A DNA stretch of 64,000 nt from Branchiostoma floridae (Eukaryota; Chordata; Leptocardii; Amphioxiformes; Branchiostomatidae), in assembly GCF_000003815.2 (NCBI RefSeq), contig NC_049982.1, forward strand, positions 27,534,648-27,598,647, written 5' to 3'. The notes beneath the pieces are model-generated. The model did no database searches, was not told where the DNA came from, and saw only the letters and a list, made by a program, of their open reading frames with translations. Positions 8,117 to 40,382 of this stretch are shown here, piece by piece; the stretch's first letter is position 1; each line of letters begins with the position of its first letter. Position numbers and translations under genes: made by a program.

Positions 8117-11100
8117 TCAGAGCTCTGTTTTGGTTGTCCTTCCAGTATCTACCTTTCCATCTAACCCATGCCACCAGTTGTATGACAGTAGCGCCACATT
8201 TCTCCCTCCTATTGCACTCATCTCCATAGCAGAGGCAGCCCACTCTATACCATTCACATAGTACAGCCCATCGTAGAGAACAAAAGTCTCTAGATGTCCG
8301 GGGCTAGCGTAGTGTGGGTACGCCAGCCAATCGACAACCTGGCTATCTTTCACCACCGTAAATAACTGAGCAATCTCCGAGTCTGCCAACGGGCGCTGGG
8401 AGAATACCTTCCACACAGCGTCCTCACTTTCGGGCCCTACGGGGGTATAGCCTTTTGAGATGTTTAATGGTGTGTGTTTGCCTATACTGTTGAACATGAC
8501 ATCAGCGTTAATGGTCATAATGCCTGTGGGAGCAGCTTTTGGGTCCGAAATACCAAAATATTCGGCGTTCAACTTACCGCGTACGAAATTCGCCACGGTT
8601 CTGTGGAACTTACCCTTTATTTCTGGCAATGGGGTCGGGAAATTAGTAAACGTGATGTTGCTCATTCCTTCGTTAAGGGGGGTAGCGACAATGACAATGT
8701 CGTAGCCTTTCTGCTCGGTCAGGATTTGGTTATTATTGGGGTCTTTAAGCTGGTACTGGAGTAGGAATTTGGGACGATCGTCGGAATTTTTTAACGTGAC
8801 CTTGGACACCTCACCAGGAATGAGGTTGACCTTGGCGGCCTTGACTAGTTCCTCCGGGACTCTTTTGTTCCCTCCCTCCACTGACCACAGGCCTGGCTGG
8901 GCACCTGCCAATGACACAGCACCTGCAAGGTATCAATTTGAATATCATTAGCATAAGCCAGTTGGCCTTGACCTATAAGAAGGATTCCATTTGCCTAGCC
9001 ACTGATCATTATTTCCTCTTATCTACCACTTGTAAGCTCTTCACATACATAAACATTGCACAACGCAGTCAAGTGTACTGGGGGTGGGCCTGTTTTTTTC
9101 AAACTTGAGTCATCATCTTCTGCATGTGTACAACATTGGAGCAGAGCCAAACCAGATATCCAATTCTCCAAATATCCTATAACACTATTTTTTTGCCTAA
9201 CATCCTAGCAAGTTGTTAAACTGCAGACACAAACTCTGTAGGACACACAAATATGGCAACAATTAACCCTTTTCTACCTCCTTTTCCAGGTAAGAATTCT
9301 AAGAATGGACATTAGGACTTAACTCATACTCACCAACAAAGAAGGGAACATCTACAGTTTGTCCATAGTTTTCTCTATTGGCTGCCATGGCCAGTTCGTT
9401 GATGAACCTCGGTGAGAAACCCTCCTCTTTCAGCCCCTGTGCGGTGGATGTCTGTGTCATGTTGACAAACTTGGCTCCACCCATGGCATAGAGAAGTTCC
9501 TCCACAGAACTGTAGGCATTTCCAGCATCCTGTAGGGTGTATATGCTAGGAGAGAAAAAAACACATAAAGTTATTGTTATTTCTTATTGGTTGGTCTGAC
9601 TACATCCTCTTCAAAGTCAGGGGCTGAATTGTGAGGAGGTTATAATAGTCGGAGCTCAATCACAAGGGTCTGGAGTGGCTCAGGTGACCTCAATATTCAG
9701 ATGACCTCAATACAACTGTCACAAGAGTCTATAGTGGTTACCATACAGCGCATGATCAAGTGACTTCAATACGACAGCATTTGCCCCAATTGTGGCCAAA
9801 GGACTGCAGGTTTTGAACAACTCATACTGGCCAGAAAATTACATCATATTTCCGCTCTCTATAGCCTCTCAGTCTAGGTAGTTGAAACCAATGCCATTAC
9901 AAGCAGCTAGTCTGTAATTGAGAATAGGAATTAATACAATGACAACATCAGCAATCTCACAACTGATTAAAATCAGTACAATAAAGAACAGAGATCATAC
10001 TTACTTCTCAAAGTTGGTCAAAGTTCGTCCAATCAAACTATTCAGCCACACGCAGTCCCATCCGTATCGCCATAGTAACTTGGCGAGCGTGACAAGACTC
10101 CAACTGCTCTCCGTGAAGACAAACTCTTGTCCGTTGTACAGCGCAAAGTGACCAGGGAAGGTTTTCCTGTGTTTCAAACCTGTGATATAGAATAAGACAT
10201 TGTCAATGAAAGTGTTTCAAGGGCAGTAAATAAGCTCACTGAGAAGATAGATACTGATACTACACTGTACATGTATGTACTTACAGTATATACAGATACA
10301 GGTAAAATTAGCTATGAATGGAGAACCGTGGCTTAACGTCCTTTTGTCCTAAGGACTGCCATCCTTTCTGATAGTGTGCATGTTGTGTAGACTGAGCGAC
10401 AACAGATGGCATGGGATTCAAGCTCCCAACCCCTTGGTCCAGAGATAGGGTCACTGGTCATGCAGATGTTATTACCTTGCCCCAAGCAGGTTATGTTTTG
10501 GTAGCAGCATGTATTAGAGGTATAAGTTATTCATTTATTAATCAGATCAGCGAAGTAGAGTAATACAAAGTCACATATATGTCGCAATTCATATTGCACA
10601 AGCTTATTAAGAAAACATCAGACACGGGCACAAAAAGTAAAGATCAAGAAAAAATACAGACACCTTTAACAGAGATCCCTTTGTTTGTGAATCTGTTCAT
10701 CAGCAGTTAAAAAGCAGTTGCAAAGGCATTAATTCATCTGCTGAGCAAAACAAAAACAAAAACACAGCAATGTTGCAAGTTAAAGGGTTTAGTGCAATAT
10801 ATGCAAGAAAACAAAAAAAAGCTGCAAAAGAAGTTTTGCATTTGTAAGAATAGTGAGTAGTGAACAGTGCTGTTACAAAGATGTTGGTGCAATTGTTGAG
10901 GAAAGCAAAATTGTGTTGTTGCATAATTCTATCATTTATCTTACAAGCAAAAGTTGTGTTGAAGATTAACTTGTATGTAACATTAATGCAATATCATATA
11001 TAAGTTTCTTACGAGTACTTGACCCAATAGAATATATAGCTAATGAAGCACTTTTCACATAACAAAATCAACCGATCAGCCGATCCTTCCAACAGTCAGG

Positions 11101-22340: not shown

Positions 22341-22649
22341 AAAAGTTCGCGAGAGATGAATAAAGTGTAGAACTAAATCTTTAAAAAAGATAACCAAGAT
22401 TCATGTCAAAGTCAAACCTAAAGATATCCTTTATTGGTCTATGGATGATTTCAAAACAGAATTGCAGGCAATACGGTAATAACTTCATATATATCCGTAA
22501 CTGTTGATGCAAAAAAAGAACAGAACTTAGAAGAAACATGATCCGGTTCAGCATATCTGTCCCACGGTTGTTTGAAGAAGACAGGAAGGCAAACAAGCAC
22601 TCAAGATAAACAGTCAGACTTTCGTCTACGGAGAGAAAGGTGAAACAAC

Positions 22650-31600: not shown

Positions 31601-34600
31601 ATGTGTATATGAAAGTTCTTAGCTAAGTATAGTGTGACCAGAATCTGAAAGCCTTCACAAATATATCTTAGTCTGTCTGTCAAGGTCTTGGGACTCTAGT
31701 TGTGTATACAACAATTATTAAGTAAACTTCACCTTCCAAACTAAGTTTGGAAGGTCAAGTTTACTTAATGATTGTTGTATACGTGAAAAAATGTTTATGG
31801 CAGAAAGTGGTGTATATATTATATTGTCATTGGGGTCCTGGCCTTTGTTACATTTGGGAAACCAATTTGCACAGGTGATGATGATTCGGAAACCACGTTT
31901 CCCATCAGAACTACTGGATGAATCTGATGAAGATGACCCAGTCTTCCCTGATGCTGACCCTGCTGCGGTTGCTGAGTACGTCAGGCACAAACAAGGTCAA
32001 CAAGCAGTGTTACACAAACAGGTAAATATATATATAATACAAGACGTTGTATTCTTGTCACCTAAAGTACCAGCCTGATTGCGAGTTGGATCGCCTGAAG
32101 GCTGATCTGACCCGTGACATGGCTGTGAATTTTATTCACTGTCACAAAAAAAACACATTTTGGTGCAAAATGAGATGGAGAAATGATCTCAGTGTTCTCA
32201 AACCAAAAATTGTTACAGCGGCAAATACAGCCAAATAAATTTCCTCCTGTGGGTACCCTGTGTGATATTCAAAATACAATGTACACTGAGTTGTATTTTA
32301 TCTGTCTGTTGTTGCCTAATAATATTATTCTTCCATGTAGGTGGATCACAACAACATTGTTGCCAAAGAAAAGCAGAAGAAATACTATGCCCGTAAAAAA
32401 GCAAAAGGTTTCAAAGCATTTGACTTTCATGTTGGACAGCAAGTGAGCCGGGCCAATCCCAAGAAAATGGGCGACAGAAAAGGAGATAGGTTAGGGCCAG
32501 ATTGGCTACACGGATTCACCATCACCAACATATGCGGCAACCGCGTTCAGCTGAAGAGCAACACAACAGGTGGGTTCATGATTTATGCATCATCATCATC
32601 ATCAAGTTCAAAATTTGAAGGTATTATGATGGGAAAGGTAGTAGCTAGTGCTAATGCAGAGATTGGCTTGCTCTGGCTATAGGCAATATAAGCCTTCAAG
32701 AACATTATGCAGGGCTCGAAATACTACCTGTATATGCAGGTTAGTGCTGTAAAATTAGAGCTGTGCAGGTATTTCTGGTGTCTACCTGCACCTAACCTGC
32801 ACTGTACTATACGTCCTATTACGTAAGGTGTACACAGATTGTTATTAGATGCATTGACTGTTAGAAATAACAATGATAGTACTTTTCTTGATTTTGGTTA
32901 TCAATATTGAGTATTAATCATCCTTGTCCTGTTCATCCGTCTTCCTTAACATGCACATTTGATAAGTATAATGTTATACTCTGCTTGTACAGGTAAAGTG
33001 CTAAAGTCTTAAATTTTTCAATCACTCATTGTGCAACCCATGTGCACTGGCTTCTGTTGTATTACCGTCAAGGACTGATTTTGGATATAGAATCTTTAGT
33101 CATTAAAATTTCTCTGAAATTTATGAATCCTAATATTTCTCTGAAATTTATAAATCCCAATATGTTCTATCTCTAATCTAAGGCAACTGTAGTCTTCGTT
33201 ATTTGTATCACAGCTCACATTTAACACAAGCAAGCAAAAAATGTATATGTAGTATTCTATTTTGACAAGCACTTTTTGTTTTCTGACTACAGAAGGCTAA
33301 CTATGAAGTCATGGTCCTCCTGCCAGAGGCCCTGGCTGCAATCTACAAGGAAAGGAAAGGCCTAGCCACAATTGAGGAGGCCAGGGAACATATTTGGTTA
33401 GCCGGTTTCCAGCTAGACCTAGATTAGAAGTTTGAGTAGTCTTTTGTTTGTCTTTGAGACCTAGTATTCCTGTGTTGTTGACAATGTACAACATATACAT
33501 GTATATTCAAGAGTAAGACTAAGATTGATTTGGTTGAAATGTGGTCATGAGTTTTCCCTATGTTGTTAAAGTCTCACAATGTACTAACTAAATATGCAAG
33601 ACATGATTCACTTGCGACATGACTTTGACAGTCCCACTGAGTATTCCCTATGTTTTTTAATGTACAAGATATCTATCCAAAAGACAAACTAAGTTTTACA
33701 GTGTGCCAGAGTGATACTGTTTGATTTTGTAGAGTTCATTGGATATGTAACAAGAACTGTTTTGTTCACTTTCACTTTCTTTTTCTTGCCTTCACTTTGT
33801 TTTTGGAAAGTTTAGATTGTAATTTGTAGACTTAAATTGCTTTTTTATTTCTTGTCTCCAACCAGAGAGAAACATGTCTTTCAGGACCTGCATGGTTTAA
33901 TAATTGACTATATTTCCAAAATTGGCATCTGATACACATTTTGTAAGTCTAGGATGTGTACATAGCATGTTTTGCACATGGACAGCCCACCCAGTCTTGT
34001 ATCTCAACTGAAGTATTATATGCTTTCTGTCATTTGGGAGACAATATGTAGTCTATTATTATAATTAGTGAAACAACCAGAGGGGCGAGTAGAACAGAAA
34101 GAAACAACATCCCGACTCCCGGGATTCGAACCCGCGCCGAACCCGGGCAGCCGGATCACAAATCGGACGTGCAAACCGTTCGGCCAAAAGGCTTAAGCCG
34201 TTAGGCGTCTTCGGTTTAGCAGTCCTTGAACACCACTGTTACACTACTCCCCCTTTTTTTCAAGATTCGTCCTCGAATCTCCGAGTTCGACATCCCTGTG
34301 TGGCACATACTAGCCTGTTACTCACAGGGCCGGCGTGGGAACCAATGAAACAACCAGAGGGGCGCGTAGAACAGAAAGAAACAACATCCCGACTCCCGGG
34401 ATTCGAACCCGCGCCGAACCCGGGCAGCCGGATCACAAATCGGACGTGCAAACCGTTCGGCCAAAAGGCTTAAGCCGTTAGGCGTCTTCGGTTTAGCAGT
34501 CCTTGAACACCACTGTTACATTAGTATTAGCCAGACTCAGAGTCATGATTTTATCAACTGTGTTAACTTTGTGAATCAATCGATGTAAAGTGGAAAAACT

Positions 34601-36542
34601 CCAACCACAGTTCTGACAAAGCAATAAAACAAGTTGACAATAATTCTTGGTCCTAAGTGTGTGTGTGTTTTCAGAGGATAATGTATAGTGTCCTTCGTAA
34701 TGTGCTGAACGTCATATTCAAAAATGCATTTCAGGTAGAATTTCGACAGTAAACTTTATTATACTCTCCGTAACTATATACATAAAACGGAAAAGAAAAT
34801 AGAACAAAACACATTGTGCCCATACTAGATATGATACAACATGATTGAAATATGATCACATTGATATCTGGGCTGCAACTGAACTGCTTACAAATGCTCT
34901 GTTTCTCAGACCGAATTAGGTGCTATGTTCACTGAGGCTAAAGGTCAGAGGTGACCTGTAAGCATTCAATACGATTTCAGCGCTAAAATGAATGACGTCA
35001 CCTTTTTTTCTTTTGTGAATTGTCTGTAATCTAGACAAATATAGCTTTTAGTTGATAACATAAATAATTAAAATATTTTTAGTAATTATTGAATTTATGT
35101 CACTATTTAGCCGAGCAAAATGTAATTGCCATATTCGAAACCCCCATGCGCACCCTACATCTCAGGTATTTGGCATGGCGCATAAATTTGGCGCTTGTAT
35201 CTGCCAAATCCATGCTTGCGCATGGATTTCGCCAACGCAGGGATTTAGCTTCACACCGGATGTTGGAGCACGTTGCCACGGAGATGACCCTACCCTATCG
35301 GACGTTGGCCTCTAACCTTTGGCTCTTCTCCCCATTGGTCGCCTGGGTGTACGCAAAAAAGCCACAAACCAATGCGATCGCTCGAACGACGACTGCTCTG
35401 ACGCGTTTCAACGCGGGGGTCAAGGATAACGTCATCTCACCGGAGGCCGTGGCCGTGATTGACCACCGGATACATCCAATGTCAAGTGTGGAGGAAGTGA
35501 TGGAGTTTGACCTGAAGGTCATTAATGATCCCAGGGTCAAGGTCACTGTTATAGATAGCCGACAACCTTCTCCGACCTCACCTTACGGGAAGGATTCTCC
35601 TACATATATGTTACTTCAGGAGACCATTCAGCAGGTAGGTACATGTATGTTTAAGTAGTACTATTTTTCAACTTGCACTGTACTGTTTCTTAACTGCTTC
35701 ATTGTTGACTATTTACATGTACAACAGCCTATTTACTACTGCCTTTGTGCTTCTACTGCAAGTGTTGAAAAAGACCCTTGTTGTACTATTACAGGCCAAC
35801 GTTGCGAAGTAAGTGTCAAGCTATTCTTATGTTCCCCCCGTTAGTGAAAACATTTTGTTTTTTGTTGGAGCGTTCTTCTTTTTCTTCTGTCAATGGAAGC
35901 AAAAATGCAGTAATTGTCTATGAATGTAACGTTAGATATAACTTTCTTTTAAAATGGCTATATCATCTATATCACAAAAAATGCACAAGACTAAACTGAT
36001 TTGATCTAGAACAATTGCGCATATTCTATCATACTGTATGTCACAAGTTTTATTTTACAAAACAAGTTTATCATCGTAGTAATTCGGTGTGTGAATCCAG
36101 TTACATTGATAATGAAAATGCCCCTTTTCTTAAATGACGCATCAGGGACGAGCCTAAAGGTATAGTAGTGTGTGCGAGTAGCGTGGCAAAGGGAAAATTA
36201 CTGGAAGGGAAACATACTGCATTTTCTCGAAAATGTTACATATCTAAGAATATCAAATGTTTATTGGCATGATGTTGTACACAGATCTACCCTGATGCCC
36301 TGGTGACCCCCACCTTCATGGTTGGCTTCACGGACACAGGGCACTACCTGAACCTCAGCAGCGCCATCTATCGGTTCAACCCGTTTGTCATGACACCGTC
36401 CGATCTCCCGAGATTCCACGGGGTAAACGAGAGGATCTCTGTTCAGAATTACGAGAGGGTCATGAACTTTTACTACCACCTCATCGTGAATATTGATAAA
36501 CCTTTGGACGTAAAAAAACACACACATGAGGACGAGCTATAG
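22650..36542 (+). CDS. PM20D1: PM20D1-like M20 peptidase family N-acyl amino acid synthase/hydrolase
   Basis: The family reversibly condenses fatty acids and amino acids to N-acyl amino acids, and the vertebrate enzyme is secreted. Exons: 22650-23361, 24087-24203, 24826-24901, 35241-35634 and 36285-36542; phases agree and give 518 residues (human 502). Residues 9-29 form a hydrophobic signal or anchor. Metal-site motifs visible: AAHLDVVP (H132, D134), GRGTIDDKHN (D165), GHDEETGGH (E199, E200), LDEG (D226). The dimerisation domain holds EEGGHASMPR, and exon 4 has TNAIARTTTALTRFNAGVKD and VIDHRIHP. The last exon carries RFHGVNERISVQNYE, with the final ligand His. All expected ligands are present, so it is probably active. 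Intron 3 (24902-35240) is 10.3 kb and hosts a separate integrase-derived gene and several mobile elements. Confidence 0.95.
25600..25760 (+). mobile_element. tRNA-derived SINE body fragment
   Basis: Words GCCCTTGGGAAAGGCACATA, CGACTTTCCTCACTTCCAGG, ATGGGTAAATGACTTCGGTC appear in the same order, inverted, in the SINE near 46960-47200. The tRNA-like head is missing here. Confidence 0.55.
25884..26024. mobile_element. Foldback MITE, family B
   Basis: Inverted ends contain CTCTCCAAGCAGAGGTTAGG and CCTAACCTCTGCTTGGAGAG; the middle reads CGTTTTTCTCGGGCTTTCTA then TTTTGTATTGT. The same element, interrupted, is at 41343-41712. It lies about 95 bases upstream of the first recognised integrase exon. 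Confidence 0.85.
26119..33427 (+). CDS. Intron-containing gypsy-type integrase gene (GIN/KRBA2-like), nested in PM20D1 intron 3
   Basis: Exons: 26119-26254, (one not found), 27256-27327, 30156-30389, 30670-30783, 31150-31251, 31875-32021, 32341-32637 and 33293-33427. Borders are GT-AG, almost all phase 0, with no stop inside. Domains in order: an N-terminal segment (TTRKYPESFAELD, KRSRMHTLQTYSKKFF); the Cys pair of the zinc-binding domain (DTCLECQRTSKIKTMCPELK); the DDE core (VGIDLIGP, TDQGSEF, HPQTNERTNG); then a GPY/F-like region (GDRLGPDWLHGFTITNI). The exon with the His pair, expected between 26255 and 27255 with length 2 mod 3, was not found. The donor after 32569 would break the frame into the last exon, so 32637 was preferred. 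The catalytic Glu follows the second Asp by only 33 residues. Could be a domesticated gene or a Ginger-like DNA transposon gene. Same strand as PM20D1. Confidence 0.75.
27631..29787. mobile_element. 2.16-kb DNA transposon-like element with 24-bp TIRs and GACG-rich subterminal arrays
   Basis: The 24-bp ends, ATCCTCTGTGAAAATTCAAG plus CGTC, are exact inverted repeats (27631-27654 and 29764-29787). Inside each end, about 250-450 bases are crowded with GCGTCCG, CCGTC and GACGG words on both strands, and the GC content contrasts sharply with the AT-rich surroundings. The interior (about 28000-29100) has only short open frames (68-112 codons) that I do not recognise. Target duplication is unclear; AT flanks both ends if the TIR begins at CCTCTG. 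Probably non-autonomous. It lies in an intron (27328-30155) of the integrase gene. Confidence 0.85.
31704..31782. repeat. Near-perfect 79-bp palindrome
   Basis: Arms 31704-31740 and 31746-31782 (37 bases each) pair with two mismatches around a 5-base centre, CTAAG. It lies in an intron of the integrase gene, about 90 bases before exon 31875-32021. It may be a tiny foldback element or a small-RNA precursor. Confidence 0.85.
33106..33165 (+). repeat. Short tandem duplication
   Basis: AATTTCTCTGAAATTTATGAATCC is followed directly by a second copy reading ATTTCTCTGAAATTTATAAATCC. It is in the last intron of the integrase gene. Confidence 0.8.
34110..34198 (-). other. Class II tRNA-like sequence inside LTR (copy at lower coordinates)
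   Basis: On the minus strand: A box TGGCCGAACGG (34176-34186), an anticodon-arm-like segment GTCCGATTTGTGATCCGG, a variable stem GCC...GGC, and a perfect B box GGTTCGAATCC (34122-34132) in a T arm CGGG-TTCGAAT-CCCG. The layout resembles a Ser/Leu-type tRNA. The acceptor stem is poor, so it is tRNA-derived rather than a working tRNA gene. Confidence 0.75.
34387..34475 (-). other. Class II tRNA-like sequence inside LTR (second copy)
   Basis: Identical to 34110-34198, shifted by 277 bases. B box at 34399-34409 and A box at 34453-34463 on the minus strand. Confidence 0.75.
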
Positions 36543-38475
36543 AAGAGCTATATCTGTATAAAGCCGTTCTAAACATGTGTATAATGTAGTACTGTAACAG
36601 TAGAATCCGTTTGATTGCACTCCTCATTCGCCAGCACATTTTATCCGAATGGTGCAACAAAGCAAAGTTATTCAGTTTTACCACAACACTACGGAACCTC
36701 GGGATTCCGTGCAATTAACAGTAGCGTGCAGTTATCCGCTGTGCAATTAACTGTAGTAGCATATACTTCTACTGTAGTAGTATAGTAACAGTATTTTAAA
36801 ATCATAATGTAGCCAGATGACCTATGAGGAACCCATATTTACTCCGGGAAGGAGGGTGACCTCATGGCGGAGTATTGTAGTTGGGGCTGTTATACTGTTT
36901 GTAGCTGTATCTCAGGATCCCTTTGCTGTGTTCGTATGCAGTTTGGTGTGTCGTCTGGCCGTAAGTATGTGGACGTTGGCCAGTTAGATGAAACTAGAAG
37001 CAGATGTTAATTAACTGAGATAGAGAGCGATATTGATAGATATAGATTGTGCAAATGAAGGCCCTTTTTCCATAATTGACAAGGAAATACTGTAATTCCG
37101 TAGATGTAAAAAATAGGAATTTCATTCTTGCAGCGAGGTAAGTAAATAAAAATGTTATACATATATAAAAGCAAATGAGGGTCTCATTTACATAATTTAT
37201 GATCAAAAGCTGGAACAATCTTCTTTCATAAGATTAGACTTTCATACATAGATAAACTTTTGTCCGGGTCTGTTTCAGGTTATAAAGTAAAAACATTTTA
37301 ATCAATACATTTCAGCACGTCCACGAATATCATGTTGCAGCAATGGATTCGAGCTTCTACCTTGGGACATTATAAGACCGCATTGTTTAAAACATAATGG
37401 CCTACGTGTTTTGGAGTAAACGATGCTGTTGATGTTGGCAGGTTCTCCCACAAGAGAGAGGGAATTTGACACGGGCTACAGGGTCTGAAATACCGGGTCG
37501 TTGACAGTTGCGCCGTGCAGCCATGTATATTTTGTTTGACGCAGCTTAGTTTCAAACAGTGAGTGTCGTGCGCGCGGTCTACCGATATGTGCCAAAAACC
37601 AGAGCAGAATACAATCATAGCAGAATACAATGCATGAAAAATGCAAACAATTCTAGTACGCTCTGGGTTCTTTCAGGGCAGCTTCTTTTTTATATATTAC
37701 TATGCCTTTAATGAGCACGAAGTACTACAGGGACCAAGGTAGAAGGACAACCAGACAAAGCACCAGCAATTACCTGGTTGTCCCAAAGCCTCACCGAGAG
37801 ACCTTCAGAATATCCATAGGCTACCGTGAGCCCAAATGTCTGTAACAGTCTACCTCCAAACATACGCACGGCCCAACGACACCCCTTCAAATACCAGCTT
37901 ACACTTTATGATGCCCTATTTTACCATGCATGTATAAAGATATAGATTTATCAGTAGTTTAATGTTGTTATCTGTACCGTTGTTATATTTTGTCGTGCCT
38001 TTACCTCTTCCCCAATGGACTCAATGAAAAGCAGGCTGCGTGTCGACTTGAGCTTCTCACGAGTAAACAAAAGCCAATCAAAAACACGTTTCGTTTTCTA
38101 TCGATGGCCATGGTTTGTATACATGTATTGTGACTCAACGGATATGATATTAAAACACCACAATACCGTTCGTACTGGGTGGGCCTATGAGAGTGGGGAA
38201 AACGAACATCATTGGAGGAACTGTATCCTGAAAAAATAACAACAACTGCCACAGCAAAGTACAAATAAGAGAACAAACAGACACAGTTTTAGTTTACATT
38301 TTCAAGTTGAATGCGATCAATGCGCAGTCTCGTATCTATTACTCAGAAGAAACAAAGAAGAAAGAACCTACGTTAATCCCCGGGGTATCAAACTAACAGT
38401 CTTCATTGCCTCTTGAGGCAGAAGTTGGGTTATTTTTTTTTGAGGCTGTACCGTGTGTATGATGTGAGATACAAC
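36543..38475. other. Intergenic spacer, PM20D1 to SVEP1-like gene
   Basis: No convincing coding exon. It contains the PM20D1 3' flank, a possible pogo-like short element (36594-36775) and the promoter region of the next gene. The frame is open from 38413 but a better signal-peptide start is at 38476. Confidence 0.6.
36594..36775. mobile_element. Possible pogo/Tigger-like short element
   Basis: CAGTAGAATCCGTTTGATTG at the left resembles Tigger-type termini, and GTGCAATTAACTGTAG at the right is a partial inverse (CAGTTAATTGCAC). GTGCAATTAAC occurs twice inside. The ends pair imperfectly. Confidence 0.35.
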
Positions 38476-40382
38476 ATGAAGGCGGTGTTTGTAATTTTAC
38501 TGTTAGTAGTTATAGCAGTTTGTCCAATTGTGGAAGGTCAGTACGTCATGTCTGCTTGGGAGGCAGCAAGCACACTGAACGCATGTTTACCCACTCGCAG
38601 TGGAGCTGTAGACATCATCTTTGCTCTCGACCGCTCTGGAAGCGTTGGCCGTTCGAACTACGACAAAATCATCGATTTCGTGAAGGCCGTTTTGAATCAC
38701 TTCAGCGTTTCACCGACAACGACTCGCGTGGCCGTCGTTTCGTTTGGAACCAGCGCAAGAGTCGAGTTTGATCTTCTTCGGTCGTCGTCGAATGACAACA
38801 ACAAGTGTGAACTGCTTCGCACCCATCTGCCCAAACTCAGTTACACCGGAGGTGCGACAAACACTGTAGGAGCTCTAAGACTAGCTTTGGCGTTATTGAA
38901 GAATCCAGGGGTCCGATCGTACTCAACAAAGGTGGTCTTTACGATTACAGGTGAGCACATATAACAAACGTTTATTGTACGTTGTCTTTGCACGATAGCT
39001 ATAAAGGACATGTATATGACTTAACATCTTTAGTTTGGGCATTGATGCATTTACGCAAAATATCAGAATGGCAATACGTTTTTGATCTATGAGTTTTAAT
39101 ACATTTTGTACATGGATTTACTGTAGCTTTGTCAATTGGTTGACAATACGTGTGATGTGTGTAACTCAGGTTGAAAATTCATTGTTTTGTTGTTTATTGA
39201 TAACCTCTGTGACCATATAGTGTTAGAATTGCACTATAAACAATTACTGCCAGATCGGCGACGTTACGTTGTGCTGCGTTTATCTTACATTTCGGTGCCA
39301 CCCCTTCCCCAATACCATAAAATCTACATAGTTGATAGAAGCAGACATGCTAGATCCTGAAAATGCCTCCGGTCCCATTGAAAAATGAGTTAATAGCTAG
39401 CACATTTCTTTTCGAACAAGAGATTAAGATCTCCGAGAAGTATCAAGAGTTTTTGTACACAGTATACAGTACACAGTATACAGTAGAAATATACAGTATC
39501 CCGTCGGATGTCAACAAGATCTAGAGTTTTCCCACCGAATGTAACGTAATACACCACCCAATTGTTGACAAGTCAGAAGGTCAAAATGGCGGACGAAGAT
39601 TGGGTGCCGAACAGTCAACACTGACAACAGTCCACAAAGAGCTTTTAATTGGTTATATTAATTTTATAATATGTGATGATTATTCGACAGACATCAAATT
39701 TTTTAAATCTAAAATACAGCATATCGGACGCTCTAAATTTTTTCAAAATATTTCAGTTTGAAACCATCGTCTGTCAACATGATATTCCTTGACATTCCTT
39801 GCTGTTTTTTTTTTAAAACAACCCATATCGGTTACTCTGCCAACTAAAGGTGAGATAATGTTACATCCCAATTGTAGCTGCCGAGTGTCTTCTTCCTCTC
39901 CGCTATTTGGGGATCCGAACAAGGATTCCCGCAACCATCCGATGCTTTACTATTATGTAATTCATAAGAGCACGTCTCTGTAACTCTCTCGATTCTGCGT
40001 TCATAAGTGATTGGTCATCAGTGTTAATACTGAAGAAGGCAGCAGTGGTCGTTGAAAATTTGATCCATGTATCCTTTTGTGTTGGAAGAAAGTTTAGCAT
40101 TGTACTATGATTACTACCCAAACAGATGAGCTTTAATCATAACATAGCTATCTATGTTTTATCATATAGATGGCTACTGGAATAGAGGCGGAGACCCCGC
40201 ATACGTCGTTAGGGAGTTACAGAGCAGAGGTGTGATCATGTTCGCATTCGGGATCGGTTCGTGGGGTATCAGCAGTTACAGATTGAGCGCTCTGGGTAAC
40301 AGGGACAGCGGTAGATACAAGTACGTCTACCTGTGTCTGGATTTCACCGTTCTATCAGAGATAGCCAGGAGGCTAAGAGGAG
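38476..40382 (+). CDS. SVEP1-like exons 1-2: signal peptide and vWA domain
   Basis: Exons 38476-38950 and 40170-40382. The domain reads [14 protein letters not shown] (DxSxS of the MIDAS), [14 protein letters not shown] (the MIDAS Thr) and [12 protein letters not shown] across the junction (the MIDAS Asp), then VIMFAFGIG. All metal-site residues are kept, so divalent-cation-dependent ligand binding is possible. Confidence 0.9.

Follow-up and report, generated by a model that had tools for sequence, protein, structure and literature searches.

A TRIM with tRNA-like LTRs in amphioxus, its likely Gypsy helper and antisense tRNA-Glu copies behind LTR ends

TRIMs whose LTRs carry tRNA-like sequence were named Helenus by Kojima in 2024 and correspond to the tRNA-type TRIMp3 (PMC10886601). 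Their hosts include coelacanth, sturgeon/paddlefish and several Ostariophysi (PMC10886601). The chordate hosts in Table 1 of that paper are vertebrates only, and Branchiostoma, lancelet and amphioxus are absent from its main text; the supplement or Repbase may hold an entry. Kojima suggests several origins for Helenus and, for animals, leaves the identity of the helper to similarity of the primer-binding site (PBS) (PMC10886601). Our literature search for follow-up reports on Helenus or TRIMp3 returned only the paper of Kojima. Cassandra of plants and Ajax of nemerteans, like the amphioxus TRIM described here, have a pol III-type promoter in the LTR, but theirs is of the 5S rRNA kind, and Ajax is reported with a 5-bp target-site duplication (TSD). 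A first-pass annotation of the amphioxus locus had suggested that a tRNA-type counterpart of Cassandra in a chordate would be a parallel invention; such elements had already been published in 2024 as Helenus, vertebrate hosts included (PMC10886601).

The TRIM in the window and its family

The window analysed here is a stretch of 64 kb (64,000 nucleotides) of the Branchiostoma floridae genome, and all positions below are those of the window. A complete TRIM occupies positions 34065–34524, with its sense on the minus strand, in the order TSD, 5' LTR, interior, 3' LTR and TSD. The 5' LTR (34346–34520, minus strand) and the 3' LTR (34069–34243, minus strand), both of the type that we call A, are direct repeats of 175 bp with a single difference (174/175 identical; also scored as 178 nt, 99%), just as the first-pass annotation had described them. 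Read on the minus strand they run TGTAAC...TTTCA, and matching TTAG sequences flank them on the left (34065–34068, plus coordinates) and on the right (34521–34524), so that the LTR-type ends and the target duplication proposed earlier are both confirmed. The 102-bp interior between the LTRs (34244–34345, minus strand) leaves no room for a gene and contains the PBS and the polypurine tract that had been noticed before. The PBS, TGGTTCCCACGCCGG (34330–34344, minus strand), is the complement of the 3' end of tRNA-Glu, as judged from the primer scars described below and from a tRNA-Glu(CTC) gene (locus L191). The polypurine tract (34244–34260, minus strand) was recognized from its sequence and by comparison with a Gypsy partner. 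At 34260–34277 (minus strand) there is a remnant that reads FEDES followed by a stop; it resembles the 3' interior end of the Gypsy partner, and we take it to be the end of a Gypsy integrase frame. An A box, TGGCCGAACGG, and a B box, GGTTCGAATCC, are found by pattern on the sense strand of each LTR, as had been claimed, at 34453–34463 and 34399–34409 in the 5' LTR and at 34176–34186 and 34122–34132 in the 3' LTR (all minus strand). The element thus has the two LTRs, short non-coding interior, PBS and polypurine tract of a TRIM, together with the tRNA-derived LTR sequence, the 4-bp TSD and the tRNA 3'-end primer that characterize Helenus.

Two frames of an M20 peptidase gene flank the TRIM, which is antisense to them; Pfam gives Peptidase_M20 in the frame at 22644 and M20_dimer in the frame at 35086. 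Neither a second TRIM copy nor a piece of a Gypsy LTR was found elsewhere in the 64-kb window. Pfam also recognizes a prenylcysteine lyase-like coding piece at 8117–8932 (minus strand) and a von Willebrand A-domain coding piece at 38377–38964 (plus strand).

The first-pass annotation had named multiple genomic copies with TSDs of 4–5 bp as support for its reading, and such copies are abundant. A 24-base interior pattern, with up to two mismatches, occurs at 270 places in the genome, and the reversed control at none. An LTR search of the 513,431,437-base assembly gave 1174 first-look candidates, the best 40 of which were scored, with 41 LTR matches reported, and an interior search gave 481 first-look candidates, the best 40 of which were scored. 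The LTR matches, and the 270 places against none for the control, exclude chance as an explanation of the element. Since most of the copies studied rank among the top matches to the window, the sample is biased toward young copies. A perfect 4-bp TSD was found in 32 of 37 delimited units with two or three LTRs, as against a mean of 1.17 when the flanks were swapped. In a first count, TSDs flanked 23 of the 27 units with two LTRs, all three of the units with three LTRs and four of the six solo LTRs; 11 partial units, one of them with matching flanks, were kept separate. In 26 two-LTR units both LTRs are of one type; the two are identical in 13 of these units and have one or two differences in six, and the remaining seven pairs, unequal in length, were left unscored. 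In agreement with the earlier view of a recent insertion, the TRIM family has been recently active. A tRNA SINE, which would have no LTRs, a LINE-type tail and a TSD of variable length, is ruled out by the LTR ends and the fixed 4-bp TSD. Tandem arrays of three LTRs within one 4-bp TSD were recognized at three loci (L014, L023 and L037).

LTR types, tRNA-like block and hairpin

LTRs of three types, A, B and C, are attached to interiors that are 93–100% identical to that of the window, and a fourth type, D, occurs in L117. The 55 distinct LTRs comprise 38 of type A, 12 of type B and 5 of type C. Compared in blocks of 20 columns, types A and B are 85% identical in the first block, 38–72% in the next three and 93–100% from the anticodon region to U5, with 55% over the last 11 columns. 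The corresponding values for A and C are 90% in the first block, 25–75% in the middle, 87–100% in U5 and 36% over the last 11 columns. On these alignments, the divergence of the LTR types is that of a mosaic. LTRs of different types also occur in one unit: three two-LTR units and one three-LTR unit (A-C-A) of this kind lie inside a perfect TSD, and four mixed units are without one. Some B/A units with common flanks are probably copies of one insertion. The mixed units look like the result of exchange between LTRs during replication, or of arrays that later collapsed.

Of the 55 distinct LTRs, 53 retain an intact B box, GGTTCGA[AT]TCC, across three types with differing tRNA-like cores, and 49 satisfy a loose A box pattern. 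ARAGORN and Rfam, the latter at its gathering score, found no tRNA in the window, and the Rfam tRNA model gave no match up to E = 5 in L008, the locus that holds the window element. The type B LTR of L040, which is without the insert described below, scores 35.6 bits against RF00005 (gathering score 29) over model positions 8–63, with the acceptor stem missing. ARAGORN calls LTR B of L035 a tRNA-Thr, the sole LTR called in 10 loci.

The first-pass annotation regarded the block as a class II tRNA with a variable stem. This part of its description does not stand. The segment between the anticodon arm and the T arm repeats the start of the T arm (34415–34424 in the 5' LTR and 34138–34147 in the 3' LTR, minus strand) and so mimics a class II variable arm, and it is absent from the L040 LTR, from type C and from L117 (type D). 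A class II origin was rejected since there is a T-arm duplication instead of a true variable arm; because the insert is a T-arm repeat missing in other LTR types, the block is best read as the relic of a class I tRNA carrying a duplication. No match to 5S rRNA was found in the window, nor in L008, L022, L040 and L046 at E ≤ 5, and membership in Cassandra was rejected because the LTR has no 5S rRNA sequence. Besides tRNA, the Rfam matches in the tested loci (microRNAs, riboswitch, coronavirus element and others) all lie below the gathering score. A long near-perfect hairpin at positions 64–148 of L040, perhaps a MITE, has sub-threshold matches to microRNA families.

Directly before the A box there is a hairpin with a T-run, recognized by fold and pattern. 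It lies at 34460–34483 (minus strand) in the 5' LTR, where it would mark a putative RNA start, and at 34183–34206 (minus strand) in the 3' LTR, where it would be a putative pol III end signal. The palindrome at the T-run is GGCTTAAGCC in type A, AGCTCTTGAGCT in type B and GCACTAGTGC in type C. One sequence of each type was folded, and the three give the same two-part stem-loop with free energies of -8.4, -12.8 and -10.4 kcal/mol for A, B and C, respectively. The fold z-scores are -1.75, -2.73 and -2.13 in the same order, and a variant with AATGGCTTAAGCCATT gives -12.8 kcal/mol and a z-score of -3.94; three of the four values (-1.75 to -2.73) are thus modest, and few LTR types are independent. 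Both hairpins are found in 46 of 47 distinct two-LTR units (one was dropped), and the T-run of the 3' hairpin is T4 in 34 of these 46 and T3 in 12. All 46 are free of T4 between the 5' and the 3' hairpin. As 758 of 1950 shuffled controls are likewise free of it, the T4-free body was rejected as proof of reading by pol III and is consistent with it only. In vitro, a hairpin adjoining T4 upgrades a weak pol III terminator to a moderate one (PMC9278858). Of the type A LTRs (38 distinct), 17 carry no more than T3 next to the hairpin and one is missing the hairpin, which is evidence against a strict terminator. Mapping of the RNA start from scar junctions inside the LTR (L046, L114, L117 and L129) was abandoned, since the junctions are scattered.

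From the boxes and the hairpin we infer that the TRIM is transcribed by pol III. The TRIM might instead be moved by Gypsy with an RNA made by pol II, its tRNA-like block being a passenger, left by an old SINE insertion, whose boxes are kept by recency only. The copies are mostly young and near-identical, so that conservation within a type says little; the Gypsy partner's LTR must rely on a different promoter; and the T-run varies in type A. However, the B box is retained in types whose cores drop to 25% identity per 20-column block, and we consider this possibility unlikely.

Equally unlikely, in our view, is the main rival to a terminator, namely that the hairpin is a signal for dimer formation or packaging. 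Its loops sit within self-complementary palindromes (GGCTTAAGCC and GCACTAGTGC), and palindromic loops of this kind resemble known kissing-loop signals, but a dimer or packaging signal leaves unaccounted for both the T-run directly behind the hairpin and the position before the A box. We therefore prefer to read the hairpin with its T-run as possibly a pol III end signal.

A Gypsy family sharing its kind of PBS with the TRIM

The first-pass annotation had also looked to a full-length Gypsy partner with the same LTR or PBS. A larger Gypsy family does exist, and it agrees with the TRIM in the type of its PBS, in the polypurine tract and in the terminal letters, though not in its LTR. Its LTRs are about 510 bp long; of 90 candidates 40 were scored, and these gave 30 loci. 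The Gypsy LTR starts with TGTAAC like that of the TRIM and usually ends with TTTCA, the PBS is of the same type and the interior end is similar. One Gypsy LTR compared with the TRIM LTR showed no significant similarity, and a different Gypsy family could therefore be the usual helper. In L061, a deleted Gypsy copy, a 420-aa frame matches rve (51.5 bits) and Integrase_p58_C, and its match to SH3_Tf2-1 is below the curated cut-off.

Twelve places in the 30 loci have a Gypsy 5' LTR with its PBS, and these continue into a normal interior in seven, a primer scar in three and a TRIM interior in two. One of the two hybrids, L072, consists of a Gypsy LTR (509 bp), the PBS, the TRIM interior and a TRIM LTR of type A, and has GGGT at either end; lying within this TSD, it was probably formed before integration and inserted as one piece. 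The second, L071, has no TSD (TTAG/ACAA). The exact hybrid pattern, searched genome-wide, recovered these two hybrids plus two scars, and its control nothing. The L072 hybrid is the best evidence that the TRIM may be co-packaged with this Gypsy, and the likely helper is a Gypsy whose PBS is of the same type as that of the TRIM. A hybrid inside a TSD is genomic evidence on the kind of helper that moves one pol III-type TRIM.

Primer scars and comparison with known systems

Antisense tRNA-Glu sequences stand behind LTR ends in the amphioxus genome. These scars were searched for with a pattern that joins an LTR end, after a single spacer base, to the opening 27 bases of the CCA-tailed tRNA-Glu complement and that tolerates up to two mismatches; this pattern extends beyond tRNA position 58, so ordinary stops are uncounted. 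The pattern occurs at 66 places (29 exact; reversed control 0), all of which were inspected, 31 first and then 35. The scar loci are L043, L046, L061, L063–L066, L075, L112–L131, L139–L141 and L162–L196, and older LTR families are included. One match, L191, is a genuine tRNA-Glu(CTC) gene without CCA and with T5 downstream, L190 is a tRNA-Glu copy joined within an LTR, and L188 is ambiguous. By a simple motif test an LTR-end motif lies at most 38 bases before the tRNA in 52 of the 66, and most of the others, by eye, end like older relatives. There are thus, as read from these junctions, about 60 insertions in which the tRNA-Glu primer appears to have been copied beyond the usual stop.

With L191 excluded, the copy comes to within 10 nt of the tRNA 5' end in 35 of 65 and ends exactly at nt 1 in 11 of 65, by a scoring that is sensitive to mismatches (L066 is shortened by a 3-nt insertion). 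In the first 31 scars the end is at nt 1 in eight, at nt 4–10 in 15 and deeper in eight. Two tRNA-Glu isodecoders are distinguished at PBS position 11, which is A in 26 of these 31 scars and G in five; 14 of the scars extend at least as far as nt 5 (11 A, 3 G), and in every one of them nt 7 fits its acceptor partner. In contrast to the scar tRNAs, normal interiors carry G at PBS position 11 in 30 of 31 distinct 5' ends, as if the PBS were not rewritten from the tRNA, which is also the case in Ty1/Ty3 (PMC5371799, section 2.2).

Beyond the tRNA, the scars jump to the U5 end, the LTR, the TRIM interior, Gypsy coding DNA or unidentified DNA. Both flanks are visible in ten scar insertions. Five have a 4-bp TSD, namely L043 (CATT), L075 (ACAA), L112 (GATA), L130 (CGAC) and L064 (GTCC), a deleted Gypsy that has L070 and L073 as its ends; one (L066) matches at three of four positions, and four (L119, L120, L123 and L124) have none. 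In L124 and L065, tRNA nt 1 is followed by a near-complement of the first 15 LTR bases; read in reverse, the LTR start is joined to sense tRNA-Glu, which looks like snap-back copying. In L113 and L172 the tRNA-Glu complement is followed by AG and the LTR start, resembling a 2-LTR junction that retains the primer.

Read-through products being common, the tRNA-like block of the LTR might itself derive from the element's own primer tRNA-Glu, a derivation that we regard as quite improbable. Among 19 tRNAs (18 from the genome plus the scar tRNA-Glu), it is tRNA-Glu that gives the highest score for the cores of L040 (B), L022 (C) and L117 (D), and after the addition of 12 provisional tRNA sequences Glu still comes first for C (20.0 vs 18.5) and D (25.5 vs 23.0). 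However, the L040 core then prefers Gln (26.0 vs 24.5 for Glu), type A of the window favours Glu in neither comparison, the 5' halves of all types are closer to other tRNAs (Gln, Val, Ser, Asn and Trp), the read-through copies lie antisense, and the tRNA sets compared are incomplete or provisional. The results being mixed, tRNA-Glu was not accepted as the source of the core. It is very improbable that the antisense tRNA-Glu beside the LTRs came from DNA recombination with tRNA genes, of which L191 is one among the 66 pattern matches, since the CCA missing in that gene occupies the PBS position, at a distance of one base from the LTR end (where the search pattern demanded it, two mismatches being allowed and the reversed control giving 0), the eight early scars that end exactly at tRNA nt 1 have no leader, and both acceptor-stem ends fit one of the two isodecoders in 14 of 14 scars.

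Taking the scars as primer copies, we consider it highly probable, for the explanation as a whole, that this is a Helenus-type TRIM, moved by Gypsy, primed by tRNA-Glu, transcribed into a pol III RNA and accompanied by read-through scars. The structure, TSDs, PBS, boxes, young copies and Gypsy hybrid are read from the genome itself, and the transcription and packaging are deduced. Pol III would begin a short distance before the A box of the 5' LTR, read through the interior and stop at the hairpin with its T-run before the A box of the 3' LTR. With a start before the 5' hairpin and an end at the 3' hairpin, the RNA would have the short repeat at its termini that the first strand transfer needs. 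Packed together with the Gag, RT and integrase of Gypsy, the TRIM RNA would be reverse-transcribed from a tRNA-Glu primer and then inserted by the Gypsy integrase. Plus-strand synthesis would sometimes fail to halt at tRNA position 58, where it usually stops, and would continue into the primer body, and part of these read-through strands, rescued by a jump, would be integrated as antisense tRNA-Glu scars.

More tentatively, we propose as a serious possibility that the stop at tRNA position 58 fails regularly, that copying of the primer body is a normal side product, that integrase takes the rescued molecules and that scars generate new small elements. If this is true, the new small elements would be single LTRs with an antisense tRNA, internally deleted Gypsies, and tandem and mixed-LTR TRIMs, and the genome would keep an inherited record of primer read-through and of the priming tRNA-Glu isodecoder in each event. 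The scars identify the primer event by event, down to the isodecoder, and let the genome test what follows when the tRNA modification block in reverse transcription fails. In the literature searched we found no earlier report of long primer scars as genomic insertions, and this part might surprise specialists.

The amphioxus TRIM is a Helenus-type element, apparently in a new subphylum. With it, pol III-type TRIMs are now known from an invertebrate chordate; the literature searched appears to contain no earlier case. Helenus has, like the amphioxus TRIM, tRNA-like A and B boxes in the LTR, a PBS, a polypurine tract, a 4-bp TSD in animals, a tRNA 3'-end primer and a likely link to Gypsy (PMC10886601). 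A Glu primer is reported for Helenus families of bivalves, and tandem arrays for LTR-11_DR of zebrafish (PMC10886601); Cassandra likewise forms tandem LTR arrays (PMC7215508). What is new here is the likely Gypsy helper, the three LTR types that share one kind of interior and have diverged as a mosaic, the hairpin with its T-run and the tRNA-Glu scars; the passages that describe Helenus mention no Gypsy/TRIM hybrid in a TSD, several LTR types, hairpin with T-run or scars. Plus-strand synthesis in Ty3 ends once 12 nt of the tRNA have been copied, and dead-end strands pile up, whereas in amphioxus longer primer copies are integrated. In HIV-1, an unmodified primer tRNA is copied as far as its 5' end, and in TRMT6 mutants copying goes beyond A58 (PMC13191261). 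The whole-tRNA product of HIV-1 is no working template (PMC13191261), whereas in amphioxus such products are found as genomic insertions.
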